Shown here in pieces: positions 38,995-58,396 of a DNA stretch of 64,000 nt. The stretch comes from Rhodothermales bacterium (GTDB taxonomy: Bacteria > Bacteroidota > Rhodothermia > Rhodothermales > Bin80). Both the position numbers and the translations under genes were made by a program. The notes below the pieces were generated by a model, which did not search any database, was not told where the DNA came from, and saw nothing but the letters and a program-made list of their open reading frames with translations. The stretch is taken from contig OX638318.1 in assembly GCA_951812585.1 (NCBI GenBank), positions 1,689,058-1,753,057 on the forward strand, read 5' to 3'. How positions within the stretch are numbered: the first letter of the stretch is position 1; each line of letters starts with the position of its first letter.

Positions 38995-39014
38995 ATGCCC
39001 AAACAGTTTGGTTT
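38995..39014 (+). pseudogene. 5' fragment of a small gene split by the composite transposon
   Basis: ATG CCC AAA CAG TTT GGT TT at 38995-39014, preceded by GGGGG, is cut by the left IS copy. Removing the transposon joins it in frame to the sequence after 42870 to give MPKQFGLEERAAKDGDYE (Gly or Asp at position 6, depending on which target copy is kept). It is a short but coherent start; see the 3' fragment at 42863-43057. Confidence 0.5.
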
Positions 39015-39087
39015 GGTGGTTATATAGTTAACTGAAGCATTTTTTCCGATCGGCCGCATAGAGGGGATACACCAGATCGGGGAATTC

Positions 39088-40026
39088 ATGGCGGTTAAAT
39101 CGGGGCCTGGACGCAGGTATCGCAAGGGAATCAGCATGGCCAAACTGGCCGAAATGTTTCCGGATGAGCAGGCGGCCGTCCTGTGGCTCGAGGCTGTGAT
39201 TTGACCGGACGGTCGTCTGTGCCCGCGCTGCAAGGGCACAGACACGTATGCGGGCACACACAGGCCAATGCCGTACCGATGCCGTCCGTGCAAGCGGTTC
39301 TTCTCGGTGCGCACAGGTACCGCATTGGCCAGTAGCCGGCTGCCGTTGAAGAAGTGGGTATGGGCCATTTATCTTGAAATGACCTCCCTGAAGGGCGTCT
39401 CCAGCATGAAGCTCCACCGCGACCTCGATGGGACGCAGACTACGGCCTGGTTCATGTTGCAGCGCGTACGGGCCGCCTTTGCGCCCCTGCTGGCCGCTGC
39501 GTTCGAGGGACCGGTGGAGGCCGACGAAGCGTACGGGGGTGGCTTGGAGAAAAACAAGCACGAGCACAGGAAGCAGAAAGCCGGACGCGGGCCGGTAGTC
39601 AAGACGGCGGTGGCCGGCCTGAAAGACCGTGCAAGCGGGCAGATTCGGGCCGAAGTGGTAGAGAGCACGAATGCAGCGACCTTACAGCCGTTCGTCTACG
39701 ATAACACCTCGGCACAACGGTCTACACCGATGAGGCACACGCCTACTAAGGGCATGCTTGGGATGCAGCACGAAACCGTCAAGCACTCGGTCGGCGGGTG
39801 GGTCAATGGCATGGCGCACACGAACGGGCTGGAGTCATTCTGGAGCATGTTCAAGCGGGCGTATCATGGTAGGTACCACCACTGGAGCAAGAAGCACGTG
39901 CACCGCTACGGGCACCAGTTTGCGGGCAAGCACAACGTACGCACAATGGATACGCTGGAGCAAAGGCAGCACGTCGTGGCTGGTATGGTGGGCAAACGGC
40001 TCATGTACGCTACGCTGACAGCGTAG
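39088..40026 (+). pseudogene. IS1595 transposase, copy A (nonsense and compensated frameshift)
   Basis: From ATG at 39088 the frame meets TGA at 39202-39204 (codon 39), where copy B has TGG. After it, the zinc-ribbon (CPRCKGTDTYAG, PYRCRPCKRFFSVRTGTA) and DDE_Tnp_IS1595 domain follow, with first catalytic Asp in VEADEAYGGG. At TCGGCACAACGG (about 39709) the frame slips by one base, so the second Asp block (VYTDEAHAYKG in the other frame) is misread; an extra T at 39747 restores the frame for HTNGLESFWSMFKRAY. The main open part is 39268-40026. The missing second Asp makes it inactive. Confidence 0.8.
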
Positions 40027-40076
40027 CGTTGTGCACCAACTCAGTGGATCAATGCATACGGACACAGGACACTGAA

Positions 40077-40265
40077 ATGACAAGAGACGACCGGCAGGAG
40101 CGCAAGCGTAAGCGCTTGCAGGACACGTGGGGCAACACGCCAGCGGCGAATCCGCGCTACGGCGGGCTAACGATACAGGAAGCTACGCGGCAGTTCTTGA
40201 AGGGCGGGAGGCCGGAGGCATCGAAGGCCAAGCCCGCCGCCCAGAATGAAGTAAGCTTCAGTTAA
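40077..40265 (+). CDS. Small passenger protein of the IS1595 element, copy A
   Basis: 62 residues from ATG at 40077 (MTRDDRQERKRKRLQDTWGN), rich in Arg/Lys at the N terminus, then NPRYGGLTIQEATRQFLKGG. No signal or membrane segment. The same ORF is open in all three IS copies here, with mostly single residue changes, although the transposase is broken in each. The TAA stop sits inside the right inverted repeat. The function is unknown; nucleic-acid binding is a guess from charge. Confidence 0.6.
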   Translation: MTRDDRQERKRKRLQDTWGNTPAANPRYGGLTIQEATRQFLKGGRPEASKAKPAAQNEVSFS

Positions 40266-40446
40266 TTATATAATCGTCAATAATTTCGCACTGCACAGTG
40301 GGCGCTCGTGGAGGGAGTAGCGTCCCATCCTTCCAGTCGAAAAGTGCCGCAGCGGTTCTGACGTGCTCCACACCCTTGTCTGTGCGCGGATATCTCAGGC
40401 TGCGTGCGACATGCCTTGCCCGCCGGGCATGTCCCTCATTCGCGGC

Positions 40447-42005: not shown

Positions 42006-42078
42006 GGTGGTTATATAGTTAACTGAAGCATTTTTCCCGATCGGCCGCATAGAGGGGATACACCAGATCGGGGAATTC

Positions 42079-42610
42079 ATGGCTGTTAAATCGGGGCCTG
42101 GGCGCAGGTATCGCAAGGGAGTCAGCATGGTCAAACTGGCCGAAATGTTTCCGAATGAGGAGGCGGCCGTCCTGTGGCTCGAGGCTGTGATTTGGCCGGA
42201 CGGTCGTGTGTGCCCGCGCTGCAAGGGCACAGACACGTATGCGGGCACACACAGGCAAATGCCGTACCGCTGCCGTTCGTCTACGATAACACCTCGGCAC
42301 AACGGTCTACACCGATGAGGTGCACGCCTACAAGGGCATGCTTGGGATGCAGCACGAAACCGTCAAGCACTCGGTCGGTGGGTGAGTCAATGGCCTGGCG
42401 CACACGAACGGGCTGGAATCATTCTGGAGCATGTTCAAGCGGGCGTATCATGGTACGTACCACCACTGGAGCAAGAAGCACGTGCACCGCTACGGGCACC
42501 AGTTTGCGGGCAAGCACAACGTTTACACAATGGATACGCTGGAGCAAAGGCAGCACGTTGTGGCTGGTATGGTGGGCAAACGGCTCATGTACGCTACGCT
42601 GACAGCGTAG
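42079..42610 (+). pseudogene. IS1595 transposase, copy B (internally deleted)
   Basis: Opens at ATG 42079 and keeps TGG at codon 39 (42193), unlike copies A and C, so this copy preserves the ancestral Trp in VIWPDGRVCPRCKG. The zinc-ribbon then runs into a 406-base deletion that removes the first catalytic region and shifts the frame (stop at 42318). The shared TCGGCACAACGG lesion follows, and an extra TGA replaces the Trp of the VNG segment near 42385. Not functional. Confidence 0.8.
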
Positions 42611-42660
42611 CGTTGTGCACCAACTCAGTAGATCAATCCATACGGACACAGGACACTGAA

Positions 42661-42849
42661 ATGACAAGAGACGACCGGCAGGAGCGCAAGCGTAAGCGCT
42701 TGCAGGGCACGTGGGGCAACACGCCAGCGGCGAATCCGCGCTACGGCGGGCTAACGATACTGGAAGCTACACGGCAGTTCTTGAAGGGCGGGAGGCCGGA
42801 GGCACCGAAGGCCAAGCCCGCCGCCCAGGACGAAGTAAGCTTCAGTTAA
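42661..42849 (+). CDS. Small passenger protein of the IS1595 element, copy B
   Basis: 62 residues, MTRDDRQERKRKRLQGTWGN at the start, differing from copy A at only a few positions (Gly for Asp, Leu for Gln, Pro for Ser, Asp for Asn). It is intact although about a third of the neighbouring transposase is deleted. The stop again lies in the right inverted repeat. Confidence 0.6.
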   Translation: MTRDDRQERKRKRLQGTWGNTPAANPRYGGLTILEATRQFLKGGRPEAPKAKPAAQDEVSFS

Positions 42850-42862
42850 CTATATAATCGCC

Positions 42863-43459: not shown

Positions 43460-44827
43460 CTATATCAACCACCGCAGCCCAGCCACAAGCGACGCCAGCA
43501 TGCAAAGTGCGGCGAAAGTGGGATTGATCGCGGTCGCGCGCAGGGGAGGACCGTAGATTCGCGGTGCCACCCGGTAGAAGATGAACGCAACCAGAACGAG
43601 GGCCAGCAGGCCGAGTCCGAGGTCGGTTAGAAGACTATGGGCATCGGGGCGCGCAGCGCTTGCATCGCCGAAGCCGCTGCCGGAAGCAATGAGAAGGATC
43701 GGGCAGTGAACGACGAGCCAGCCTATCCCGATGCTGCCGAAGAGGTGCAGCGGGCGTCGTCTGCGGTCGGGCTGAAGACGGATCCGCGACACACCGTACA
43801 GGGTGATCTGGGCCGCGAAGGTGCTGGTGAATAGGATGACGAGCCATCCGGCCCCGGCGATGGAGTGGATGAACAGCCAGACCAGTCCCGCGGCCGTGGC
43901 CCAGAACATGGAGAACACGGTATGTGGACGACGGTCGGTGGAGCGCGTGCGAAACAGGATCTGGGTGAAGAAGAAGACGGCCGGTCCGAGGAACCATAGC
44001 CAGCCACCCAGCGTCACGGTGGTGTAGGCGAAGAGCGCACACCCGATCAGCGCGCTGTCGTCGAGCTTGCTGCGACCCCGCCAGGCCAGGGCAAACGCCA
44101 TGAACACGGCCGCGACGAGCAGGTGAATGACGAGACTCTGCACGTCTTCGCCCAGGTAGAGGCGCAGAAACGCGTGGGCCCCGAGGGGGATGAAGAGGTT
44201 GTCAAGCCCGCGCCACGCCACGCTCTCTAACATCATGACGAGGAGGGCCAAAATCGCCGCGATGAGAATGGATTCGGCGCGACCGGTATTGGTCAGGAGC
44301 AGGATGGGGAGGTGGGCGCTGAAGAAGGCCACCAGGAAAAATGCGAGAGAACCCTCAAGGCTCTTCACGCCGTCCGCAGTTTGGTACTGCACCTGTCCGT
44401 AGCGAATACCCACCAGGGCGGCGACGGCGTCCGCCAGCGCCAGCATCAGGATCGGCACGACATACAGCAGCCAGTGGTCGCCACTGAGGATGAAGAGGAG
44501 AACGACGGAGATAGGGTAGTAGATCTCCCCCAGGCTGTCCCGCCCAACTCCGTCCATCACCGTTCCGACGCCGCGGCGCAGCCACCTGATCGAGCGCGTC
44601 GCCAACAGGGCACTGCAGGCGAGAGCGGCCAGCACGATCACGGGCCAGACATGGTCGAAGATCCAGGGAAAGGGGAGCACGACCAGCCCCATGCCAACAT
44701 GGACCCCCTTACGCAACGCCTCGGGGTGGAAGCGGCCCCACTTTTCTGCCCCTTTGAGACCGAACAGGAGGCCGGCGAAGGCGGCGAGTACGGCCCCTAT
44801 GGCGAGGAGGGTGGCGGTGAGCGTCAT
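43460..44827 (-). CDS. Phytol/dolichol-kinase-like membrane protein, possible two-kinase fusion
   Basis: 455 residues with about twelve membrane helices. The N-terminal half has RKGVHVGMGLVVLPF and ALADAVAALVGIRYG...KSLEGSLAFFLVAF, the pattern of CTP-dependent prenol (phytol/dolichol) kinases and CDP-diglyceride-type enzymes. The C-terminal half (about 240-455: DDSALIGCALFAYTTVTLGG, LGPAVFFFTQILF) resembles DUF92/VTE6 phytyl-phosphate kinases, though more weakly. If both hold, the protein could turn a prenol into its diphosphate. It is the last gene of the minus-strand cluster, its ATG overlapping the DUF3419 stop (ATGA). The kinase substrate is unknown. Confidence 0.65.
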   Translation of the reverse strand: MTLTATLLAIGAVLAAFAGLLFGLKGAEKWGRFHPEALRKGVHVGMGLVVLPFPWIFDHVWPVIVLAALACSALLATRSIRWLRRGVGTVMDGVGRDSLGEIYYPISVVLLFILSGDHWLLYVVPILMLALADAVAALVGIRYGQVQYQTADGVKSLEGSLAFFLVAFFSAHLPILLLTNTGRAESILIAAILALLVMMLESVAWRGLDNLFIPLGAHAFLRLYLGEDVQSLVIHLLVAAVFMAFALAWRGRSKLDDSALIGCALFAYTTVTLGGWLWFLGPAVFFFTQILFRTRSTDRRPHTVFSMFWATAAGLVWLFIHSIAGAGWLVILFTSTFAAQITLYGVSRIRLQPDRRRRPLHLFGSIGIGWLVVHCPILLIASGSGFGDASAARPDAHSLLTDLGLGLLALVLVAFIFYRVAPRIYGPPLRATAINPTFAALCMLASLVAGLRWLI

Positions 44828-45999
44828 CAGTGCTCGGCCTCCGTTTCAGCTTCTGCCGGCTGGACCGTTCCCTGCGCCTCGGTCCTCGCGGCTGCCTCGT
44901 CCGTCTCCGCCACCTCCACGACGAACCGGCTGTAGAAGAACGCCTTGTCTTGGCGGTGGAGCCGCTCGGCGAGCTCGCTGCGCGGGGTGAGGACATGCGC
45001 CAGTGCCGCCGGCCGGCTGCGGGGCACCAGCATGTTCCAGTAGGCGAATCGGGCCCCGTCGCGGGCGTGTCCCGCCAGGGTGGCGAGCAGCTGGTGGAAG
45101 CTGTCGTCGGACATGTACTCGAAGATATCGCTCAGGTTGAAGCAGTCGACGCGTAGCCCGGGCTCGGAGTTAAGTAGCTGTTCGATCGACACACAGTGCC
45201 ATTCGAGCCGGTCAAGGTTCGCCTGGATCGCTTCGAAGTTCTCCCTGCGCAGGGCGTGAGGAAGGGCGGTGGGATGGCGGCCGGTCAGGATCCACTGAAG
45301 GTAGGGATTGGCCGCGGGATCGAGCTCGGTGAGGGCGTGCTCCGCACGGGCTAGGATGCGCTCGGCCACCGAGCCCTGCACATAGCGGAAGAAAGCCGGA
45401 TCGCGCCCCATCTTGCCCATCACAAAACGGGAAAAGAAGAGCCGGAAGAGTAGACGCCAGCGCAGGTTGTTCCAGCTCCTGGTGTAGAACCGGCGGCGCT
45501 CGTCCAGGGTGCCGCCTGCCAGCAGCCGGTCCACCCGGCGCGCGGGATGGATCCACGGCAGCACCCGGTTGCGAAAAGCCGCGAAGTAGCGCTCGAACTT
45601 GCCGGCGGCTCCGATGCCGGCCTGGACGAGCTCCGGGCGGGCATCCCAGAATGCGCGGGAATCGCCGTCGAGGGCCGCGCGGCAGCGCCGGTAGAGAGAT
45701 TCCCGGTCGTCACATTCGCGCGAGCCGACGAGTTGCAGGAGCTCCTGGTGTTCGAGCGTGCGGTAGGCTGCGACGCGCAAAGCGAGACAGGCAAGCTGCG
45801 CCGGGTTCATGTCGACGGCGATCACGCGTGCCGGGCCATGGGCGAGGAGCGAGAGCGAGTTGTCGCCGGCCGACGCGATTGAAAGGCAGACATCGCCTTC
45901 GCCCACATCGAGCGCTTCCAGCAAGATGTCGGCGTCCTCCCAGCACTGCGCGTAGCGGACGAAAGAGAAGTCAGCTCGGTCTTCGGCTTCGGTGCTCAT
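44827..45999 (-). CDS. DUF3419 / BtaA-like 3-amino-3-carboxypropyl transferase
   Basis: 390 residues from ATG at 45999, preceded by GGGGGG at 7 bases. The pattern RYAQCWEDADILLEAL, LSIASAGDNSLSLLAHGPARV and VIAVDMNPAQ matches BtaA, which transfers the 3-amino-3-carboxypropyl group of SAM to diacylglycerol in betaine-lipid synthesis. No BtaB N-methyltransferase is nearby, so the product would stay an unmethylated homoserine ether, or the acceptor differs. An Ala/Glu-rich tail (EAQGTVQPAEAETEAEH) ends it. Cytoplasmic, probably membrane-associated. Confidence 0.75.
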   Translation of the reverse strand: MSTEAEDRADFSFVRYAQCWEDADILLEALDVGEGDVCLSIASAGDNSLSLLAHGPARVIAVDMNPAQLACLALRVAAYRTLEHQELLQLVGSRECDDRESLYRRCRAALDGDSRAFWDARPELVQAGIGAAGKFERYFAAFRNRVLPWIHPARRVDRLLAGGTLDERRRFYTRSWNNLRWRLLFRLFFSRFVMGKMGRDPAFFRYVQGSVAERILARAEHALTELDPAANPYLQWILTGRHPTALPHALRRENFEAIQANLDRLEWHCVSIEQLLNSEPGLRVDCFNLSDIFEYMSDDSFHQLLATLAGHARDGARFAYWNMLVPRSRPAALAHVLTPRSELAERLHRQDKAFFYSRFVVEVAETDEAAARTEAQGTVQPAEAETEAEH

Positions 46000-46045
46000 G
46001 GGCAAACCCCCCGTGCCAGATACGTCTGCGGCCGCACTTGAGCGC

Positions 46046-48784
46046 TCATGCGTTGGCTGCCTGTTGCGGTTGCACCGGCACACCACTGGGGGCCGAGTTG
46101 GTCGCTGGCGGCGGCGCGACGTCCAGCTTCACCGTGCCGCGCGCGCCGTCCATCTCGACCCAGCTGCCGCTCTTGATCCGGCTGGTGGCGCCGGCGATCG
46201 AGACGATGGCGGGAATCCCCATCTCGCGGGCCACAATTGCCGAGTGCGAGAGCAGGCTGCCACGCTCGACCAGAATGGCGGCAGCTGCTGGGAACAGCAT
46301 GATCCAACCTGGGTCGGTGCGCTCCGCTACCAGGATCTCTCCCTGCTGCAGCTGGGCCCCACGCGGATCGCGGATCACGCGCGCCCGACCCCTCACGACG
46401 CCCGGGCAGCAACCGATGCCGCGGAGACCGTTCGCTGCTTCGCCATCACCCTCCCCAGCGGCGCTTGCGGGGCTCTTCGTGTAGCTGTTGGCGATGTACG
46501 GAGCACCGAAGGTCTCGAAGCGGTCGGCCGGAGCTTCGAGCTCCGCGTAGCGCTCAAAGGCGCGCTGCCGTACGTCCGCGAGACCGCGCAGGTCTTCACA
46601 CGCCGCGGCCCCCTCGGTGTAAGCGACGATCTCGTCGAGTTCGAGAAAGAAAATGGCGCGCGGATCATCGAGGACCCCTTCCGCGAACAATCTGCGGCCG
46701 GCTTCAAGGAAGATCCGGCGCACGCGGCCGAAGAGGCGGGTGCGCTCGAACCTGAGATTCTCCCTATCCCGGACCCGCCCGCGCGCATTGTGCAGCACCC
46801 ACGCGAAGATCGCTCGGCGCAACGGGCGTCGCGCCAGCGCCACGCGCACCTTCTCTTCCGCCTTCTCGCGCACGCTCGACTGGATGCCGGCATCGAAGGC
46901 CTGTCCGCGCACGAGGCGTGCCGCGGCGTGGCCTATCGAGCGGAGCAGCGGCTCTGGATCGTCGTAGAGCGTGGCGGATTCGAGCTTGAGCTCGTCGAGG
47001 CAGCGGTCGCCGAAGGTGTCGAGATAGTCGTCGTAGAGTCGTGCCAATTCCTCATGGCCGCGCAGGGTTCCCTCGGCCGCCTTCACCGACCCGTCGCAGA
47101 GCGTGCCGGTCAGCTCGGAATCGCGCGCCGCGACGGTGGCCATCTCGATGATGCGCTTTGCGGGCTCGGCGCTGATCATGCCGCCCTGCTCACATACCAG
47201 GTCGTTGTGCAGGGGACCGTGTTCATCCTCTTCGTCCGGGCACCACTTTGCCGTAAGGCGGCCCAGCAGGCCGAAGAAGATCATTGCGAAGAAGTCGTTG
47301 ATCAGCGGTGCGTCCCAGCGAGTTAGCAGATTCACCTCCAGGGCGCGGTAGTCGGCGACCACCTGGTCGAGGCGCCTTGCTTCGAGCGGTGGATCCGGCG
47401 GGGTGAGCGCGCGGTCGAGACGAGCATGGAATCGGTCGATCATGCGGGGGAGCCGAGCCAGGTTGACGACCATGCCACCCATGGTGCGGACCAGCCGAAG
47501 TAGATCAGCGAGGCGCGCCGAGCGGGAGGCACTGGATGCGGCGGCGGTGATCTCATCAGGAAGGCTCTCCCGCACGCCCATCATCTGTTCCATGAAGCGG
47601 CGATTGAAGGTGTAGCCCGGGAGCAGCGCGATGACGCGGTACCAGTTCAGGAGGTTATAGTAGACCCGGCCGCGCACCAGGCCGAGCATGCGGCGGAAGG
47701 TGAGATCGTTGGCCGCGATTTTTGCCTTGGTCACGCCCAGAAGGCGGCAAAACTCGCGGTAGACACCCTCGTAGGCGTGCAGCGCGAAGCTGAAGGTCAG
47801 CGGAGTGGTGATGCCACTGTAGCTCTCGATGATGTTCGAGTTGTCCCAGATGGCGCGGACGCCATCGGGATCGGGTGTGATGGCGAGGGAGGTTATCGGC
47901 CGGGACTGGAGGAGGAAGAATTCGCCGTCGCGCATCGCCCATTCGATGTCCTGCGGCCGCCCGAAATGCCGCTCCGCTACGCGCGCGAGCTCCGCTACGC
48001 TAGCGGCCTGCTCGTCTGTGAGCGCCGGCTCTGAGGCCGCAGGGTCCGCGATCTCTTGCGCCGCAACGCCCGCTGGACTGTCGGGGGCCGGCCGGTGCGC
48101 CAGGTTCTTCGTAACGATGTCCCGCTCGAGGATCGATCCGTCGAAGTTGACGCGCCAGGTATCCGCGTCGGCGTCTCCGCCGACCAGCGCCGTTCCCAAT
48201 CCGTGGAGTGCCGACACCACCGCGACCGAGCGGCGGCCAGTCACCGGATCGGCGCTGAAGGCGACCCCTGAGACCTCGCTGTCCACCATCTCCTGCACCA
48301 GAACAGCTGGAGCCTGTGGCAGCTCCTCGAGGTTGTTTTGCCGCCGGTAGGCCAGGACGCGTTCACTGAAACCGGACCTCCACACGTCGATGATTCGGGC
48401 CGGCAGGCGCTCGCGCGTGACCGAAAGGAAGCTGTCGAACTGGCCGGCAAAGGAGTGCTCGACGCCGTCCTCCTGCACGCCGGAAGAACGCACCGCCACG
48501 TACCGGGCGTCGCAGTCCAGCGCTGCAAAACGCGCCTCGACTTCCGCCATGACCTGGGATGCGGGCGTCATGTGGGCGAAGAATTCCCGTAGTTCGCGCT
48601 GATCCTCCACCTGCAGCAGGGCCCGACGCTGCCCGGGCGAGAGAGTGGCGTTGAAGGCTTGCGGTGCGATCACGAACCAGGCCGGGATCTTCAACCCCGT
48701 GCCGGCGAGGGAGGAGAGGGCCGCAGCCTTGCCCCCCATTCGGGAGAGGTCCACGCCATCGGAAAACGAGAGAACGAAAGTCAT
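46046..48784 (-). CDS. ATP-grasp/phosphohistidine phosphotransferase (rifampin-phosphotransferase or PEP-synthase-like)
   Basis: 912 residues from ATG at 48784, which overlaps the ubiA-like stop (ATGA). The N terminus is a PPDK-type ATP-grasp domain (GGKAAALSSLAGTGLKIPAW; VAVRSSGVQEDG...SFAGQF at about 97-115; EWAMRDGEFFLLQSRPIT), the C terminus a swivelling phosphohistidine domain with GSLLSHSAIVAREMGIPA, catalytic His847. The PEP/pyruvate TIM barrel is absent; a roughly 450-residue helical middle domain replaces it. This is the layout of rifampin phosphotransferase, which moves the ATP beta-phosphate to a hydroxyl. In this cluster I infer phosphorylation of a lipid or prenol-like metabolite; antibiotic inactivation remains possible. 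Confidence 0.75.
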   Translation of the reverse strand: MTFVLSFSDGVDLSRMGGKAAALSSLAGTGLKIPAWFVIAPQAFNATLSPGQRRALLQVEDQRELREFFAHMTPASQVMAEVEARFAALDCDARYVAVRSSGVQEDGVEHSFAGQFDSFLSVTRERLPARIIDVWRSGFSERVLAYRRQNNLEELPQAPAVLVQEMVDSEVSGVAFSADPVTGRRSVAVVSALHGLGTALVGGDADADTWRVNFDGSILERDIVTKNLAHRPAPDSPAGVAAQEIADPAASEPALTDEQAASVAELARVAERHFGRPQDIEWAMRDGEFFLLQSRPITSLAITPDPDGVRAIWDNSNIIESYSGITTPLTFSFALHAYEGVYREFCRLLGVTKAKIAANDLTFRRMLGLVRGRVYYNLLNWYRVIALLPGYTFNRRFMEQMMGVRESLPDEITAAASSASRSARLADLLRLVRTMGGMVVNLARLPRMIDRFHARLDRALTPPDPPLEARRLDQVVADYRALEVNLLTRWDAPLINDFFAMIFFGLLGRLTAKWCPDEEDEHGPLHNDLVCEQGGMISAEPAKRIIEMATVAARDSELTGTLCDGSVKAAEGTLRGHEELARLYDDYLDTFGDRCLDELKLESATLYDDPEPLLRSIGHAAARLVRGQAFDAGIQSSVREKAEEKVRVALARRPLRRAIFAWVLHNARGRVRDRENLRFERTRLFGRVRRIFLEAGRRLFAEGVLDDPRAIFFLELDEIVAYTEGAAACEDLRGLADVRQRAFERYAELEAPADRFETFGAPYIANSYTKSPASAAGEGDGEAANGLRGIGCCPGVVRGRARVIRDPRGAQLQQGEILVAERTDPGWIMLFPAAAAILVERGSLLSHSAIVAREMGIPAIVSIAGATSRIKSGSWVEMDGARGTVKLDVAPPPATNSAPSGVPVQPQQAANA

Positions 48785-49740
48785 CCGAATTCCCTCAAGA
48801 GCAGCGGCACCGGACCCAGGCTCAGGTATAGTACCAGCGTCCAGACCCCAGACCAGTTCTCGATCCAGCTGCCCGCACCCGGCGTCGGGCGTCGCAGGAA
48901 GCCAATCCCGATGAGCACCGCGGCACCGAAGACCATTCCGAGGGCAATGGAAAGCGGCAGGACGAAGCCGATGCGACGCGCGGCCAGGAAGGCACAGGCG
49001 AAGGTGAGTCCCAGCACCAGCCACCACATGCCCAACGCACGCCGGCGTCCCCATACTACGGAATAGGTGGGGACGCCTTCCTCCTCGTCCACGGGGCTGC
49101 GGATTTTGCGTCCGATCTCGATCACCATGCCGTTGAAGAGGCTGGCGAGCAAAAACCAGAAGAGTCCGGATGGAGGGTGGCCCTGGAAAACCAGCCAGTC
49201 GCTGCTGGTCGCATAGAGGTCGATGAGCGGCATGATGGCCATGTGGGTGACCATGTATAGGAGGTGTTTGCCCCGCAGCCACGCTCCGATGAAAAACTCC
49301 TTGCTCATCAGGGCCAAGTAGGTCCAGGTGACGAACAGCAGCACCAACAGCTTCTGGTCCAGCCAGAGGGCCAGACCGAGTTGCAGAAGCCCCGTGAGCA
49401 CGAAGAGAACGCGCAGCTCCTGGAGCGTCACCAGGCCACGTGGCACGGGGCGGAAGGGCCGGTACCGTCTGTCCTCCTCTTCATCCTTGAACTCGTCCGC
49501 GATGCGGAGCTGGAGAAAGAAGCATAGGCAGGAAAAAAAGGCGACGACCGCCGAGAGCGGGCTAGGCCACCCGCTGTCCGAACGCAACATCCACGAGAAG
49601 GCGACCGCGCTAAAGCTGAAGGCGAGGATGAGCGGGCCGTGGCGCACGAGGGGGAAGCGCTCCGCCTGATAGACCCACCAGCGCTGCAAGCCCTGCTCCT
49701 TCGGGCCGTCTGACCCGGCGCTGCGCGTCGCACCGCTCAT
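48781..49740 (-). CDS. UbiA-family prenyltransferase-like membrane protein
   Basis: 319 residues, about eight or nine membrane helices. The first Asp-rich motif reads RIADEFKDEEEDRRY (Asp82, Asp86, Asp90), followed by RPFRPVPRGLVT; the second lies near NGMVIEIGRKIRSPVDEEEG. These match a distinct UbiA branch sometimes mislabelled as a permease. UbiA enzymes join a prenyl diphosphate to an aromatic or lipid acceptor. The ATG overlaps the HMG-CoA reductase stop and its own stop overlaps the phosphotransferase start, so three steps are translationally linked. Confidence 0.78.
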   Translation of the reverse strand: MSGATRSAGSDGPKEQGLQRWWVYQAERFPLVRHGPLILAFSFSAVAFSWMLRSDSGWPSPLSAVVAFFSCLCFFLQLRIADEFKDEEEDRRYRPFRPVPRGLVTLQELRVLFVLTGLLQLGLALWLDQKLLVLLFVTWTYLALMSKEFFIGAWLRGKHLLYMVTHMAIMPLIDLYATSSDWLVFQGHPPSGLFWFLLASLFNGMVIEIGRKIRSPVDEEEGVPTYSVVWGRRRALGMWWLVLGLTFACAFLAARRIGFVLPLSIALGMVFGAAVLIGIGFLRRPTPGAGSWIENWSGVWTLVLYLSLGPVPLLLREFG

Positions 49741-51095
49741 GTCGCGCCTTCGTTCTCTCGGGGTTTCCGGCGGCTGCCGTCACGATGTGCCGGTGTACCT
49801 GCCTTCTCCGCACCCTCGGCGGGCCTCCGTGCCAGCGTCTGGTGTGCCTGCGTGAAGTGACCTGATGCCAGCGCGGCGATGATCGACAGCTCGCCGGCAA
49901 GCACCAGGGCGGCGCATACCTCGGCAAAGGCAGCTGCCTTGCCCGGCCCGGACAGGTTCATCATATCCAGGCAGGCGTTCTGGCTTGGGAGACCCGTTCC
50001 GCCTCCCACCGTTCCGACGATGATGTTGGGCAAGGTGACCGCAGCATAGAGACTGCGGTCTCCCACAGGCTCGAAGCGGGTTACGCCGACAGCGGACTCA
50101 GCCACGCACGCGGCGTCCTGCCCGCAGGCAATGTAGAGCGCAGCGATCCCGTTAGAATAGTGCCCCTGGATCCCGATATTGCCGCTCATCACCCCGCCGA
50201 TCGACGAGACCCGGTAGAAGTCCAGCATCTGTCTAGCGCTCGACTTCAGGTGTCCACCGAGAATAGTGGGTGTGAGGGTCACCTCCGCGGTCACCTTCCT
50301 TCCACGAACGTTCTGAAAGGACAGGTGCGAGGCCTTCTTGTCCCCCGACAGATTCGCCTCGACGAACCAGTAAGCGGGCTGCACGGGTGTGTTCTCGAGA
50401 ATGAAGCGACAGATGGCGTCGGTTGCGATCGTGACCATGTTCTGCCCAGCCGCATCGCCGGTGCTGTACTCGAAGATCAAGTAGACGTGATTGCCTTCCA
50501 GGTTGATGCGGGTGCGCTTGAGTTGACCGTGGCGGGTCGTGGACGCGGCAATGGTGCGGAAGGTATCCTCGTGGCCGCCGGCCCACAACAGGAACTTGCC
50601 GACCTCGATCAGGCTGTCGAACGCAAAGACCGGCGCCCGCGTCACGCCCTCCCAGAACATTGCCGCCGTGCAGCCGCCGGCCAGGGTGATGGCCTGCGCC
50701 CCCCGCGTGTAGGACGCCACCAGAGCGGCTTCCGTCGTCGCCAGCGGCGCATAGTAGTCCCCTTGGGCGTACAGCCCTCGCACCCGTAGCGGTCCAGCCA
50801 GCCCGACGGGGAGCTTCACGGTGCCGATGAAGTTCTCGATGTTCTTGCTGTAGACCCCCATCTGTTCGAGTGTCGTAGCATCGAGGAGGCTTGCCCTAGA
50901 GTGCGCCGCGCCATCGAGTAGTTGCCAGCGCTGGTGCACCGCTTCGGGGGTAATCTGCGAGGTCGAATCACCGCGAGGGACGTGCGGCGAGAGGTTCTCC
51001 CGGGCAGGCGTAAGAGCCTGCTCAATTTCCTCCTCTGAGCGATGGGCGAGGAGCCGCCCGAAGTATTTGTGCGTGCTGCGGAGATCAATGGCCAT
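49737..51095 (-). CDS. HMG-CoA reductase, class I type
   Basis: Reduces 3-hydroxy-3-methylglutaryl-CoA to mevalonate with NADPH. From ATG at 51095 it is 452 aa; further upstream the frame only shadows the ligase gene. Catalytic residues are visible: Glu122 in ATTEAALVAS, Lys in SGDKKAS (253/254), Asp327 in GQDAAC, His418 near the C terminus, plus ENFIGTVKLPVGLAGPL and the nucleotide-binding GTVGGGTGLPSQ. No N-terminal membrane region. Other mevalonate-pathway genes are not in the window. The start overlaps the upstream ligase by 11 bases. Class I rather than class II (Pseudomonas) sequence. Confidence 0.9.
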   Translation of the reverse strand: MAIDLRSTHKYFGRLLAHRSEEEIEQALTPARENLSPHVPRGDSTSQITPEAVHQRWQLLDGAAHSRASLLDATTLEQMGVYSKNIENFIGTVKLPVGLAGPLRVRGLYAQGDYYAPLATTEAALVASYTRGAQAITLAGGCTAAMFWEGVTRAPVFAFDSLIEVGKFLLWAGGHEDTFRTIAASTTRHGQLKRTRINLEGNHVYLIFEYSTGDAAGQNMVTIATDAICRFILENTPVQPAYWFVEANLSGDKKASHLSFQNVRGRKVTAEVTLTPTILGGHLKSSARQMLDFYRVSSIGGVMSGNIGIQGHYSNGIAALYIACGQDAACVAESAVGVTRFEPVGDRSLYAAVTLPNIIVGTVGGGTGLPSQNACLDMMNLSGPGKAAAFAEVCAALVLAGELSIIAALASGHFTQAHQTLARRPAEGAEKAGTPAHRDGSRRKPRENEGAT

Positions 51096-52755
51096 AACGG
51101 TCCAGCTCTTTCTCCAGTTGAGGGTAGTCGACTTTCGCGTTGTGGCGGCGATCGACCGGGATTCGGGGCAGTCGCACGATTCTGTCGAGCTGCGCCCAAC
51201 ATAATGTTTCTTCCACGCGTAGCGCCGCATCCGCAGGCGCCCGCGGTGCCAGTTGCACTGCAAGCACCCGCTCGCCATTGCGGCTGGCGAGGGCGCTCCG
51301 CTCAATCCAGGGCAGCTGGCTTGCCGCGCATTCGGCGGCGAAGGGATAGATCGTACCGCGTTCGTCGCGAATGACGGCGCCGGCGCGTCCGAGCAGCCAG
51401 AGTCGACCTCGGACGTCAAGGTAGCCGGCGTCGCCGGTGCGGTGCCAGACTACTCCTTCAACGCGGAACTTGGTTTCCTTGTTGCCGACGCCGTTAAGAT
51501 AGCCACCGAGCACATGGGGGCCGGAGACCACGATCTCGCCGCCTTGCTTTGGAGAGAGGGTCAGGCCGGCGAACTCCACTGCTGTCATTGCCTGAAGGGG
51601 CTCGCCCCAGCGGTTGGGCAGGATGCGCAGATCGACCTGGCGCACTGGCTCTCCAACCAGAAGTCCCATACCGGCATACATGGCGTCTAGGTCGGCGGGT
51701 TCCGCCTCATTCCAATCCAGGTGGGCAATGGGTTCCGCCTCGGTGGAGCCGTAGACCACGATTACCCGGCCCTTGGGCAGCGCCGACCGGAGTTCCTGCA
51801 AAAAAGGGGGGAAGACGGGCGCACCACCGGTGTAGAGCTTCTCAAGTGTGCCGAGGCTGGACTCCCCGCTCTCGCTTCGCAGCTCCGGGCTGGCATGCCC
51901 CCGCGCGTTGTGAACCCTGACTCCGCGTGCCCCGTGAAGCAGCCGGGCGTACAGCGCCGGCGATCCAACCGTGCGAGTGACGCGGTGACGCTCGAGCTGC
52001 GCGAGAATCGGTTCCGGATCGATGAAGCCAGGACGCCGGAGGTCCCCCCTTGGGATGACCGTTGTCACGCCCGACGCCAGGTTTGCGAGCACGAAGATCG
52101 GCAGCGTCGGGAGATCCACCTCGCCTGCCTCCAGCTCGATGGACTCTGCCAGTGCCTCGTGCTGTGCCAGCAGAAAGCCGTGGCTGCGCACCGCTGCCTT
52201 CGGGATTCCGGTGCTGCCGCTGGTAAAGGTCAGCAGGGCGTCGTGCGACGCATTGCAGGGGGTGATCGAGTCCAGTGCCTCGAACCGTTCGAGAGTGGAC
52301 CAGTGGGTCGCCCACGGGGCCCAGCCCGCGGTCACGAAGTGCCGTTCGATTCGACGCAGGCCCCGACAGAGGAACCGCAGGATGTGTGCCCGGGCCGGCC
52401 CGATGAACGCTTTGGGCCGCGCGATGTCGCAACACTGTTCTATGTGTCCGCGTCCTGCCGTAGGGTCAAGCACGGTCGCCACTAGCCCCAGTCGGAATAT
52501 CGCCAGCAGCGCGGTGTAGAGCTCGATGGACATCGGCTGGAAGACGAGTACCCGGTCTCCGTTGCGGAGCCCCGCGGATCGAAGCAAGGCGGCGGCCCGC
52601 GCCGAGCGGTCCGCGAGCTTGGCAAAGGTGAGTGCACGCTTGCCCTCTCCCGCTGACTCGACGATGGCGAGCGCATCGGGCCGCTGCCTGGCTTGATCGA
52701 CCAGGATCTGGGTGATGTTCACGACAGGGAAGCCACCGAATTGAAGGGAGGACAT
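51085..52755 (-). CDS. OleC-like acyl-adenylate / beta-lactone synthetase
   Basis: ANL-superfamily enzyme, 556 aa from ATG at 52755 (a TTG at 52767 would add four residues inside the promoter element). It shows the P-loop LLTFTSGSTGIPKAAV, YGSTEAEPI, the RTGDAGYLD motif and the C-terminal RHNAKVDYPQLEK with the catalytic Lys. VDLPTLPIFVLANLASGVTTVIP and the GSPALYARLL segment are close to OleC, which adenylates beta-hydroxy acids and closes a beta-lactone. No OleA, OleB or OleD partner is present. Next to HMG-CoA reductase, a beta-hydroxy acid such as HMG or mevalonate is a conceivable substrate (inference). A general acyl-CoA ligase is the alternative. Confidence 0.75.
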   Translation of the reverse strand: MSSLQFGGFPVVNITQILVDQARQRPDALAIVESAGEGKRALTFAKLADRSARAAALLRSAGLRNGDRVLVFQPMSIELYTALLAIFRLGLVATVLDPTAGRGHIEQCCDIARPKAFIGPARAHILRFLCRGLRRIERHFVTAGWAPWATHWSTLERFEALDSITPCNASHDALLTFTSGSTGIPKAAVRSHGFLLAQHEALAESIELEAGEVDLPTLPIFVLANLASGVTTVIPRGDLRRPGFIDPEPILAQLERHRVTRTVGSPALYARLLHGARGVRVHNARGHASPELRSESGESSLGTLEKLYTGGAPVFPPFLQELRSALPKGRVIVVYGSTEAEPIAHLDWNEAEPADLDAMYAGMGLLVGEPVRQVDLRILPNRWGEPLQAMTAVEFAGLTLSPKQGGEIVVSGPHVLGGYLNGVGNKETKFRVEGVVWHRTGDAGYLDVRGRLWLLGRAGAVIRDERGTIYPFAAECAASQLPWIERSALASRNGERVLAVQLAPRAPADAALRVEETLCWAQLDRIVRLPRIPVDRRHNAKVDYPQLEKELDRYGH

Positions 52756-52762
52756 TACATTT

Positions 52763-52803
52763 TGCAAAGTTACCTTTGCACCAATGAACCGACAAGTCAG
52801 CCA
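52763..52803 (-). promoter_or_regulatory. Promoter with overlapping palindrome ahead of the OleC-like operon
   Basis: On the minus strand TAACTTTG (52765-52772) matches the TANNTTTG -7 element, with a TTG about 20 bases upstream as the -33 part. It sits within a perfect inverted repeat TGCAAAG-N4-CTTTGCA (52763-52780). Placement ahead of the six-gene coupled block, between the GNAT gene and the ligase, suggests a regulated promoter; the dyad would block polymerase if bound. Confidence 0.5.
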
Positions 52804-52807
52804 CGCT

Positions 52808-53797
52808 TTATGTAAGCGCCTTCTCGTAGAGCGTATAGCGCCGGATCGTAGTGCCGTAGCGGGCCGAGATGTTACGCGACCGGTTTGTCTCGTGCATCAG
52901 GGCGTGAATGGCGCGCCTTAGCCCGAGCTTCCTTGCGGCCTGCTGGCAGTCATCCATCAGCAGTCCGCCCAGCCCGTTTCCGCCGCACGCCGGATCTACG
53001 GCCATCGACTTCACGATCACCGTGCGTAGCGGCTGGCCGCGTGCCAACTCCATGAGATCCGGGATGCCGAAGATGAAGCCCACGAGTTGCTGGCCGCGCT
53101 CCGCGAGCAGGACCAGCTCGGGCACCAGATGCGGACGGATCGGGGTGTATGAGGCGAGGAATGCATCGAGCCCGATGGGGCTGTAGAGGAAATTGCCGCT
53201 GAACGCCACGAGCGACAGTTCGTGAATGGCCGCGAGTTCAGCGTCGAAGCGCTTGATGTCGATCGTCCGAAGGGTGATGCCGTCGCGTTCGAGCTCGGCA
53301 CGGCGCTGCTCGGAGCGTGGATCGCAGCGGGTCAGGTCCGCGTTCAGCGCCGAGAAATAGGTGGCCAACGGCTCGAATCCGGCGTCGGTGAAGTGCCGGG
53401 GCCAATCGTCGGGATTGTCGGGTTCCAGGAAGAAGATCGGCTCGGTTCCGCGATCGGTCAGCAGTCTGTAGCGGTGCCAGGTAGAGCCGTCCATCGGGCC
53501 GATGATGCGTTCGCAACCGTTTGCCCGGTGCCAGCTCAAGGCGCGTTCCAGCAGTTCGTTGCCGGCCTGCGCGTCGGCAGCGACGTAGTGGCCGGCCAGG
53601 CCCGTTGTAGTCGAGGCGCCGTGGGCGTCGCGGGCTCGCCATAGCGAACAACGGGCGATCAGGGCGCCTGCCGCGTCCTGCAGCGCGAGGTGGCGGGCGG
53701 GGGTGGTAAGGTGGAACGCTGCGGGTTCCAAAGGCTCCACCGGGCCGGCCGGCAGAGATGCCAGGTCTTCACGATTGTTGATGATGAGCGCTCTCAC
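52808..53797 (-). CDS. GNAT-family acyltransferase
   Basis: 329 residues. The N-terminal half looks like a degenerate GNAT repeat (LERALSWHRANGCERIIGPMDG); the C-terminal half carries the acyl-CoA-binding motif A (SMAVDPACGGNGLGGLLMDD) and ends NRSRNISARYGTTIRRYTLYEKAL. It probably transfers an acyl group to an amine. It is on the same strand and directly upstream of the OleC-like operon but is separated by 52 bases containing a promoter, so it may belong to the same regulon without being in the coupled block. The substrate is unknown; acylation of an aminocarboxypropyl group is a guess. Confidence 0.7.
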   Translation of the reverse strand: MRALIINNREDLASLPAGPVEPLEPAAFHLTTPARHLALQDAAGALIARCSLWRARDAHGASTTTGLAGHYVAADAQAGNELLERALSWHRANGCERIIGPMDGSTWHRYRLLTDRGTEPIFFLEPDNPDDWPRHFTDAGFEPLATYFSALNADLTRCDPRSEQRRAELERDGITLRTIDIKRFDAELAAIHELSLVAFSGNFLYSPIGLDAFLASYTPIRPHLVPELVLLAERGQQLVGFIFGIPDLMELARGQPLRTVIVKSMAVDPACGGNGLGGLLMDDCQQAARKLGLRRAIHALMHETNRSRNISARYGTTIRRYTLYEKALT

Positions 53798-55956: not shown

Positions 55957-56439
55957 CGATAGATTCCAAAGGGGATTATACGCCTGGCTTGACGGTGAAG
56001 TTCTCCATCAGTCACCTCGCCAGTGGTGTGACGGACTGGCTTGCCGAGGAAGGCCCGGGCAACTTCCGCAGGCGTGGCTCCCTACTACACCCATAGGGGC
56101 ACGAGCTCGCGCACAACAATCCGCACTTTACCCGTCCATTGCTGCCCACACTAATTAGTTATGGCCGGCTCCAAACCCGTACGCGTTCATCGATAACGTT
56201 TCGCAATAGAAGACAGCACAATGGGTCTGCCTTGGCGATCCGGGGTCGCCCGCTTGCGATTTGCCTGTCCCTGGTTTTGGCCGCACCAGTCGCAGCAGGT
56301 CAAGCGTGGAGTGCGGTGGCGCCAACAGTTTTCTCTGACACTTCTGGCAGTCCGAGGCAGCTGTGGTCCAGGGCGGAAGGGGGAAGCCAACTGTATTGAT
56401 CAACCCTTCCTGATTAAAGGGTGATTCGGCTAAAACAAT
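55957..56439. other. Intergenic region up to IS copy C
   Basis: About 480 bases without a supported gene. A plus-strand frame (56139-56399) contains a signal-peptide-like stretch LAICLSLVLAAPVAAGQAW followed by SAVAPTVFSDTSGS and may be the start of an exported protein cut by the IS, but no clear start or homology is seen. A 12-base match to the repeat at 38.6 and 59.7 kb (TCACCTCGCCAG) occurs near 56014. Confidence 0.35.
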
Positions 56440-56512
56440 GATGATTATATAGAGAACTGAAACCTTCTTTCCGATCGGCCGCATAGAGGGGATACACCAG
56501 ATCGGGGAATTC

Positions 56513-57450
56513 ATGGCGGTTAAATCGGGGCCTGGACGCAGGTATCGCAAGGGAATCAGCATGGCCAAACTGGCCGAAATGTTTCCGAATGAGCAGGCGG
56601 CCGTCCTGTGGCTCGAGGCTGTGATTTGACCGGACGGTCGTCTGTGCCCGCGCTGCAAGGGCACAGGCACGTATGCGGGCACACACAGGCCAATGCCGTA
56701 CCGATGCCGTCCGTGCAAGCGGTTCTTCTCGGTGCGCACAGGTACCGCATTGGCCAGTAGCCGGCTGCCGTTGAAGAAGTGGGTGTGGGCCATTTATCTT
56801 GAAATGACCTCCCTGAAGGGCGTCTCCAGCATGAAGCTCCACCGCGACCTCGATGGGACGCAGACTACGGCCTGGTTCATGTTGCAGCGCGTACGGGCCG
56901 CCTTTGCGCCCCTGCTGGCCGCTGCGTTCGAGGGACCGGTGGAGGCCGACGAAACGTACGGGGGTGGCTTGGAGAAAAACAAGCACGAACACAGGAAGCA
57001 GAAAGCCGGACGCGGCCCGGTAGTCAAGACGGCGGTGGCCGGCCTAAGAGACCGTGCAAGCGGGCAGATTCGGGCCGAAGTGGTAGAGAGCACGAATGCA
57101 GCGACCTTACAGCCGTTCGTTTACGATAACACCTCGGCACAACGGTCTACACCGATGAGGCGCACGTCTACAAGGGCATGCTTGGGATGCAGCACGAAAC
57201 CGTCAAGCACTCGGTCGGCGAGTGGGTCAATGGCATGGCGCACACGAACGGGCTGGAATCATTCTGGAGCATGTTCAAGCGGGCGTATCATGGTAGGTAC
57301 CACCACTGGAGCAAGAAGCACGTGCAACGCTACGTGCACCAGTTTGCGGGCAAGCACAACGTACGCACAATGGATACGCTGGAGCAAAGGCAGCACGTCG
57401 TGGCTGGTATGGTGGGCAAACGGCTCACGTACGCTACGCTGACAGCGTAG
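56513..57450 (+). pseudogene. IS1595 transposase, copy C (nonsense plus frameshift)
   Basis: ATG at 56513, then TGA at 56627-56629 (codon 39), the same nonsense as copy A. The zinc-ribbon and first catalytic Asp (VEADETYGGG) follow in frame from 56693. At TCGGCACAACGG (about 57133) the frame is lost as in the other copies; the continuation with YKGMLGMQHETVKHSVGEWVNGM is in another frame (57178-57450). No compensating insertion as in copy A. Not functional unless ribosomes both read through and shift. Confidence 0.8.
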
Positions 57451-57500
57451 CGTTGTGCACCAACTCAGTAGATCAATCCATACGGACACAGGACACTGAA

Positions 57501-57689
57501 ATGACAAAAGATGACCGGCAGAAGCGCAAGCGTAAGCGCTTGCAGGACACGTGCGACAACACGCCAGCGGCGAATCCGCGCTACGGCGGGCTAACGATAC
57601 TGGAAGCTACACGGCAGTTTTTGAAGGACGGGAGGCCGGAGGCATCGAAGGCCAAGCTCGCCGCCCAGGATGAAGTAAGCTTCAGTTAA
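57501..57689 (+). CDS. Small passenger protein of the IS1595 element, copy C
   Basis: 62 residues starting MTKDDRQKRKRKRLQDTCDN, again open throughout, with conservative Lys/Arg changes relative to copies A and B. The stop is in the right inverted repeat. Persistence of this frame in all three copies is notable given the damage to each transposase. Confidence 0.55.
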   Translation: MTKDDRQKRKRKRLQDTCDNTPAANPRYGGLTILEATRQFLKDGRPEASKAKLAAQDEVSFS

Positions 57690-57702
57690 CTATGTAATCG
57701 CC

Positions 57703-58396
57703 AAAGAAAACGCTCGGCGGCATCAGGTGCGTGCCCTCATCGCGTTCTGCAGACGATGGCACGCATCCTCCAGCCTATTGACTCGAGTCGGGAGCCCGCT
57801 TTCCTCTTCTTGACCAGTGTCGCTGAGGCCCTGCCGCTGGCAATCGCGCTGGCTGCAGCAGACGCGGTGCTGACCTGTGCCGATGCGGCTCATCTGCCCA
57901 GCATGTACCAAGAGACTGTAGACAAGTAGCCGCGCAAGGCGCGAGTAGGAAGCTGCCGAGTGCGTTTGCGTGCATTGGTGAACAATCGGGCTCGGGCTCA
58001 GCCTGCCAGCACAGATCAGTAATCCATGCGACTTTAGAATAGCTCGTATTCGGACACGGCGGAGATGAATGCAACGCCACGGCGACCCAGGATGTAGGTG
58101 GCATTGCGGGTCCCTGTGAGCGGATATCCGTAGCCGTGGACAGCCTCGCACAGGTAGAGCTCATGTATCGAAGAACGGAGAAGCGGTAGAGAGTAAGGGT
58201 TTTCCGTCCAATCCACTACTGGCTCTATCCTACAAACAGCCATGCATTGCGGCACCGGATAATAGCCTTAAGGCGGCAACTTTTCTGTTAGTTCGTCATC
58301 TAGTCTCTAAAGGAAGACGCAACCGGGCACGGCTATCCTGTGGCTGTGTCCGAAGTCCTCCGCGGCTAATGCCTAACCAATCTGAATTGTAGCATT
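57703..58396. other. Intergenic region with uncertain small frames
   Basis: About 690 bases. Two frames look slightly protein-like: plus 57756-57929 (57 codons, hydrophobic ALPLAIALAAADAVLTCADA) and minus 58034-58255 (73 codons, ending GRRGVAFISAVSEYELF). Neither has a ribosome site or recognisable family, so I do not call genes. The stretch right of the IS may hold relics of a disrupted gene. Confidence 0.3.

Follow-up and report, generated by a model that had tools for sequence, protein, structure and literature searches.

A Seven-Gene Operon Shared by Distant Phyla

The window analysed here is a 64,000-nucleotide stretch of a Rhodothermales bacterium (assembly GCA_951812585.1, contig OX638318.1, positions 1689058-1753057), the genome of which forms a single contig of 3.2 Mb. 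The window contains seven adjoining genes (43460-53797), all on the minus strand, which almost certainly constitute one self-contained pathway. In the order of transcription, they encode a tandem GNAT, an adenosine monophosphate (AMP)-forming ligase, a homologue of 3-hydroxy-3-methylglutaryl-coenzyme A (HMG-CoA) reductase (HMGR), a UbiA homologue, a dikinase, a DUF3419 protein and a polytopic membrane protein. An earlier note on this DNA had listed the same open reading frames, and its assignments for the first six families were borne out. It had also suggested that the proteins serve one pathway, which is supported by the distribution of the genes in other genomes.

A scan of GTDB r220 with an alignment of the UbiA homologue yielded 303 relatives, the best 80 of which were retained. 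The comparison also took in a Roseinatronobacter plasmid and three further genomes from the same phylum. Label-free grouping of all open reading frames in 84 loci, the window included, gave seven families present in 46-74 loci each. No eighth widespread family was found in these loci: the next group consisted of spurious overlapping frames (10 loci), and the remainder occurred in at most six. The joint recurrence of these seven families, with no other family common to the loci, supports a single self-contained pathway. In the 38 loci of at least 18.5 kb, the UbiA (by selection), dikinase and DUF3419 genes always stand together (38/38). The ligase is present in 33, the HMGR homologue and the GNAT in 32 each and the membrane protein in 30, and some of the absent genes lie past contig ends or were dropped by the overlap filter. 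Independent occurrence of the genes, which the earlier note would have taken as a refutation, was tested by these counts; copies of the HMGR subfamily are, however, also found on their own in some Bacteroidota.

According to the record titles of the best 80 relatives, the distribution covers about 15 phyla: Gemmatimonadota, Verrucomicrobiota, Planctomycetota, Acidobacteriota, Cyanobacteriota, Nitrospirota, Pseudomonadota, Thermodesulfobacteriota (Geobacter), Deinococcota (Trueperaceae), Chloroflexota, Armatimonadota, Hydrogenedentota, Rokubacteriota, Actinomycetota, Bacillota and Bacteroidota/Rhodothermota. As most carriers are metagenome-assembled genomes, individual phylum assignments may be mistaken, and on a few short contigs part of the gene set only is present. 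Luteolibacter pohnpeiensis and Argonema antarcticum are among the isolates. When the seven proteins were searched by tblastn in those genomes of the phylum that bear HMGR, all seven were found clustered in three distant ones (G016, G064 and G158), at 26-52% identity.

The gene order is near-identical among the carriers, most commonly HMGR-UbiA-dikinase-DUF3419-membrane protein-GNAT-ligase; the GNAT-ligase pair is placed in front in the window and its near relatives. Plasmid unnamed3 of the alphaproteobacterium Roseinatronobacter sp. S2 carries UbiA-dikinase-DUF3419-membrane protein-GNAT-ligase with generic annotation only. Its linearised record stops 522 bases ahead of UbiA, and no HMGR gene was seen in this piece. 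The cluster is present twice, on different contigs (L073, L076) of the Nitrospirae metagenome-assembled genome GWC2_56_14.

Six of the genes had been described as coupled by overlaps of 4 to 11 bases. This holds for three junctions, namely ligase/HMGR (11 bases), HMGR/UbiA (4) and UbiA/dikinase (4). The DUF3419 and membrane protein genes share one base, and gaps of ~40-50 bases are present at the GNAT/ligase and dikinase/DUF3419 junctions. An open reading frame of ~17 codons (45998-46049, minus strand) reaches from the stop codon of the dikinase, in which it starts (ATGA), to the start codon of DUF3419, and is possibly a leader for translational coupling.

The HMGR Homologue Has an Altered Substrate Pocket

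The HMGR homologue keeps the residues that we take, from the human enzyme, to be catalytic. The equivalents of Glu559, Lys691, Asp767 and His866 (human numbering, read by alignment to the 6hr7 and 8ecg sequences) are present in 50 of the 50 cluster copies. The residues presumed to contact HMG fall into two groups. Ser684 is replaced by Glu and Met657 by Gln in every copy, and none has Lys at position 735, which is occupied by Ser, Gly, Ala or Thr; Arg590, Asp690 and Lys692 are kept in all 50. The replacements are near-completely shared by ten Bacteroidota relatives outside the cluster, which rules them out as cluster-specific. Stand-alone genes of this subfamily (L024-L033) were found in Rhodothermia and other Bacteroidota, users of the methylerythritol phosphate (MEP) pathway where tested, and one of them (L030) is located near an acyl-CoA-synthetase-type gene. 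Their products are probably not mevalonate-forming HMG-CoA reductases.

The isoprenoid supply of the carriers was judged from marker enzymes. Dxr is present and mevalonate diphosphate decarboxylase absent in G000 and G016. Among 29 further named cluster genomes, Dxr was found in 27, and a credible decarboxylase in none (best score 23 bits, versus 160-165 in mevalonate users). G000 gave no HMG-CoA synthase with PF08540, which is a weak test, as this profile also missed G064 and G158, both of which have the decarboxylase. These two genomes and G025 possess the decarboxylase and no Dxr, and all three encode another HMGR in addition to the variant; two of these additional proteins were inspected and are divergent members of the class II type. 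In nearly all carriers, the cluster HMGR is therefore unlikely to serve isoprenoid supply through mevalonate.

The earlier note had proposed a prenylated lipid or a related terpenoid, which would imply an isoprenoid pathway fed by this enzyme. Such a supply was rejected based on the pocket residues and on the MEP context of the carriers, and it is very likely that the cluster HMGR does not feed isoprenoids. It probably acts on an acyl group other than HMG.

Ligase, GNAT, Dikinase and Membrane Protein

The ligase scores 379 bits against NF006754, under its cutoff of 478, and 240.8 against the OleC equivalog, for which the cutoff is 900. Its resemblance to the beta-lactone synthetase OleC of the OleABCD system is that of a PRK09274/OleC-type ligase. 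The hydrocarbon/beta-lactone pathway was ruled out by the low OleC score, together with the absence of OleA, OleB and OleD from the conserved set.

The AlphaFold model of the GNAT (pLDDT 93.7) matches the tandem GNAT 7q3a best in the PDB, with a Z score of 22.7. It aligns over its entire length with this structure, with the mycothiol synthase MshD (2c27, Z 20.5) and with an N-myristoyltransferase (1nmt, Z 14.8); its closest neighbours are MAB_4324, mycothiol synthase and a glucosamine N-acetyltransferase. Two GNAT domains in one chain are thus confidently predicted by the model. A ceramide-synthase-type GNAT was also considered, on which the literature searched yielded no information.

The dikinase comprises a PPDK_N domain (~16-301) and a PEP-utilizers domain (~814-884), the swivelling-domain His of which is conserved within LSH.AIVARE. 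No PEP-utilizers_C, the C-terminal phosphoenolpyruvate (PEP)/pyruvate-binding barrel, was detected in the domain search, which excludes a PEP synthase. The ATP-grasp domain, the large middle domain and the C-terminal swivelling His domain, in that order and without the barrel, are shared with Rph, PigC and RedH, and the protein had rightly been called rifampin-phosphotransferase-like as far as domain architecture goes. However, it scores far under the curated cutoffs of these proteins (320.8 versus 999, 303 versus 1300 and 360 versus 1350) and has different partner genes. Its score against NF004881 is 797 bits, under the cutoff of 883. A 36% identical dikinase is encoded in a different context on a Streptomyces clavuligerus plasmid (L138, 7969-10812), beside AfsA-like and isoprenylcysteine-methyltransferase-like genes.

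The membrane protein, previously described as prenol-kinase-like, is indeed polytopic, but the window protein has no significant family match and no match in the PDB, where no relative has been solved. Weak similarity to DUF92, the kind of protein to which the phytyl-phosphate kinase VTE6 belongs, is seen in five of its 36 homologues (best E 2e-4). The invariant motifs are RK..H, D...A..G...G, EGS and G.DN...P.

Proposed Pathway and Alternatives

A lipid-like product of the operon is likely. We tentatively suggest that this mobile and self-contained unit makes one membrane-associated metabolite of that nature, by a route of which we infer the substrates, the step order and the product. The AMP-forming ligase would convert a lipophilic carboxylic acid into its activated form, either the acyl-CoA or the acyl-adenylate. 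The HMGR-like enzyme would then apply the hydride chemistry of HMGR to a non-HMG acyl thioester, resulting in a primary alcohol. The dikinase and the prenol-kinase-like membrane protein may phosphorylate this alcohol, possibly up to the diphosphate, comparable to the activation of phytol by VTE5 and VTE6. The activated chain would be transferred by the UbiA-like enzyme to an acceptor within the membrane, after which the DUF3419 protein would add a group derived from S-adenosylmethionine (SAM), perhaps aminocarboxypropyl, and the tandem GNAT would acylate an amine. The steps are placed in this order because the normal chemistry of each family implies it; that the route is correct exactly as drawn is doubtful.

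The UbiA homologue might instead point to a prenylated metabolite, either meroterpenoid or quinone-like. The ligase would activate an aromatic acid, UbiA would attach an MEP-derived prenyl group, the membrane kinase would recycle prenol, and HMGR and the others would tailor the product. Membership of the UbiA family agrees with this, as do the first Asp-rich motif, present as DEFKDxxxD with D replacing the usual N, and the closest solved structures, digeranylgeranylglyceryl phosphate synthase and chlorophyll synthase. The second Asp motif, however, is lost, this site reading GRK...E.GV.TY in the 54 aligned relatives, and the conserved set has no genes for aromatic-ring formation, cyclases, oxygenases or prenyl diphosphate synthases. 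A prenylated product is therefore considered rather unlikely.

The earlier note, which had called the DUF3419 protein BtaA-like, suggested a prenylated lipid with a homoserine-like head group. In this version, BtaA would make the head group, and HMGR would provide the isoprenoid chain by way of mevalonate. PF11899 is matched over its full length (positions 6-382 of 385), and the catalytic residues of HMGR are intact. The AlphaFold model (pLDDT 93.2) displays a core resembling class I methyltransferases, into which a helical segment is inserted, and a fold search with it retrieved generic methyltransferases only (best Z 13.1 over 160 residues). BtaA and BtaB, which synthesise the betaine lipid diacylglyceryl trimethylhomoserine, are resembled in the DUF3419 family and the SAM-binding, methyltransferase-like fold. 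In Sinorhizobium, the BtaA gene is followed by that of a BtaB-like methyltransferase, whereas no BtaB belongs to the conserved set of the 84 loci, which has six other partner genes. The cluster copies read AGDN in place of the GGCN of Sinorhizobium BtaA, and the protein is only 26-30% identical to rhizobial BtaA-type proteins. The HMG pocket is altered in all 50 copies, and the lower mevalonate pathway is missing in most carriers. As originally stated, this product is improbable; a homoserine-like group as such is conceivable.

Mevalonate itself could serve as a building block, in which case HMGR would reduce leucine-derived HMG-CoA, the ligase would activate the mevalonate and the GNAT would transfer it. 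SidI and SidF handle anhydromevalonyl likewise in fungal siderophores. This would explain the co-occurrence of HMGR, AMP ligase and acyltransferase in MEP genomes and the retention of Arg590, Asp690 and Lys692. Nevertheless, Ser684, Lys735 and Met657 are replaced in all copies, and UbiA, the membrane protein and the dikinase would be left without a role, which renders it quite improbable. Finally, the seven genes could have come together by chance, or be carried as passengers by a composite transposon, and lack a common function. The insertion sequence (IS) copies that flank the block in the window would agree with this, but it is refuted by conservation (near-identical order over about 15 phyla, no other common genes and translational overlaps) and has a negligible probability.

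The lipid-like route proposed above has its own difficulties. The substrate and product of every step are deduced, and the kinase assignment of the membrane protein, drawn from sequence, is weak. The loss of the second Asp motif in UbiA argues against an ordinary diphosphate donor. The chemistries of Rph, PigC and RedH differ among each other, and the dikinase could drive a condensation instead. Arg590, Asp690 and Lys692, which are HMG contacts too, are kept, and a related hydroxy-acyl substrate is conceivable. In addition, the HMGR subfamily exists without the cluster.

Horizontal Acquisition and Genomic Surroundings

The block had been described as an acquired island flanked by insertion sequences, which agrees with our results. 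Three IS1595-family copies lie on its two sides in one orientation (Table 1) and are 93-97% identical over the aligned pieces. The block genes have a GC content of 65.3% and a GC content at third codon positions of 0.80, versus 61.9% and 0.72 in thirteen left-flank genes.

Table 1. Genes of the operon and insertion sequences around it. Coordinates are window positions.
Feature	Position	Strand	Evidence and remarks
Tandem-GNAT acyltransferase, 329 aa	52808..53797	-	PF00583 43.7 bits; AlphaFold model matches tandem GNATs
AMP-forming acyl ligase, PRK09274/OleC-like	51085..52755	-	Start uncertain (52755-52767); PF00501 180 bits
Class I-type HMG-CoA reductase homologue, altered HMG pocket, 452 aa	49737..51095	-	PF00368 370 bits
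UbiA-superfamily membrane transferase, second Asp motif degenerate, 319 aa	48781..49740	-	PF01040 60 bits
PEP-synthase-like dikinase without PEP barrel, Rph/PigC/RedH architecture, 912 aa	46046..48784	-	PPDK_N and PEP-utilizers
DUF3419 (BtaA-family) SAM-dependent transferase, 390 aa	44827..45999	-	PF11899 254 bits
Polytopic membrane protein, prenol/polyprenol-kinase-like N-terminal half, 455 aa	43460..44827	-	No family match of its own
IS1595-family element, copy A	39014..40280	+	PF12762 82.9 bits; 96.8% identical to copy C over 1267 bases
IS1595-family element, copy B, internally deleted	42006..42862	+	blastn pieces 42006-42280 and 42272-42862; 93-96% identical to A and C
IS1595-family element, copy C, opposite side of the block	56439..57704	+	PF12762, blastn

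The GyrB of the window is 71-72% identical to that of Rhodothermales and 58-59% to that of Gemmatimonadota carriers. The block proteins, in comparison, are 71-89% (mostly 81-89%) identical to Gemmatimonadota copies (L035-L037) and 61-81% to Rhodothermales-type copies (L039, L042, L043). The HMGR tree joins the window copy to those of Gemmatimonadota (SH-aLRT 99) and sets the Rhodothermales-type copies apart as a group of their own (98). Within the window's own family, UbiA has a patchy distribution, five of nine sampled genomes having the gene. The incongruence of the block proteins and the HMGR tree with GyrB is the strongest indication of transfer among these sequence comparisons, whichever its direction. 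The window copy was acquired by horizontal transfer, with Gemmatimonadota or a shared donor as the probable source.

Between the block and IS copy C, a gene for a secreted-looking thioredoxin/AhpC-type protein is located on the plus strand (54262-55956); its GC content is below that of the block, and it is outside the conserved set. Further away (8183-31342), the window contains an mra/mur/fts-type cell-division cluster (~8.2-22.5 kb) and, after it, genes of the histidine-degradation type (hutF, hutI, hutH and hutU, 24.9-31.3 kb), all named by eye from their translations only.

Comparison with Known Systems and Significance

To our knowledge, any described system shares two or three of the parts at most. 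Searches of the open-access literature with combinations of gene and family names, which left subscription papers and preprints outside reach, retrieved no published description of the operon. This is in line with the earlier note, although it is not proof of novelty. The VTE5/VTE6/VTE2 salvage of phytol for tocopherol in plants and cyanobacteria is similar in its succession of alcohol, phosphate, diphosphate and UbiA transfer, and in a DUF92-type kinase (weak match). It differs from the operon, which has no aromatic acceptor genes, has extra HMGR-like, DUF3419, GNAT and ligase genes and has lost the second Asp motif of UbiA. The class I HMGR of the mevalonate pathway has the same catalytic Glu, Lys, Asp and His, but the cluster copies differ from it at positions 684, 735 and 657, most carriers use the MEP pathway, and those that use mevalonate have a second HMGR.

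It is possible, if rather doubtful, that the operon makes a new class of bacterial lipids, spread over about 15 phyla at least partly by horizontal transfer, in which HMGR is repurposed as an acyl-thioester reductase that provides the chain alcohol, and UbiA accepts a non-prenyl donor. The marker gene (UbiA) of this operon without an assigned product occurs in ~300 sequenced species, which represents a gap in bacterial lipid or natural-product chemistry. The HMGR subfamily is probably not mevalonate-forming, and mevalonate-pathway annotations inferred from it are likely wrong.

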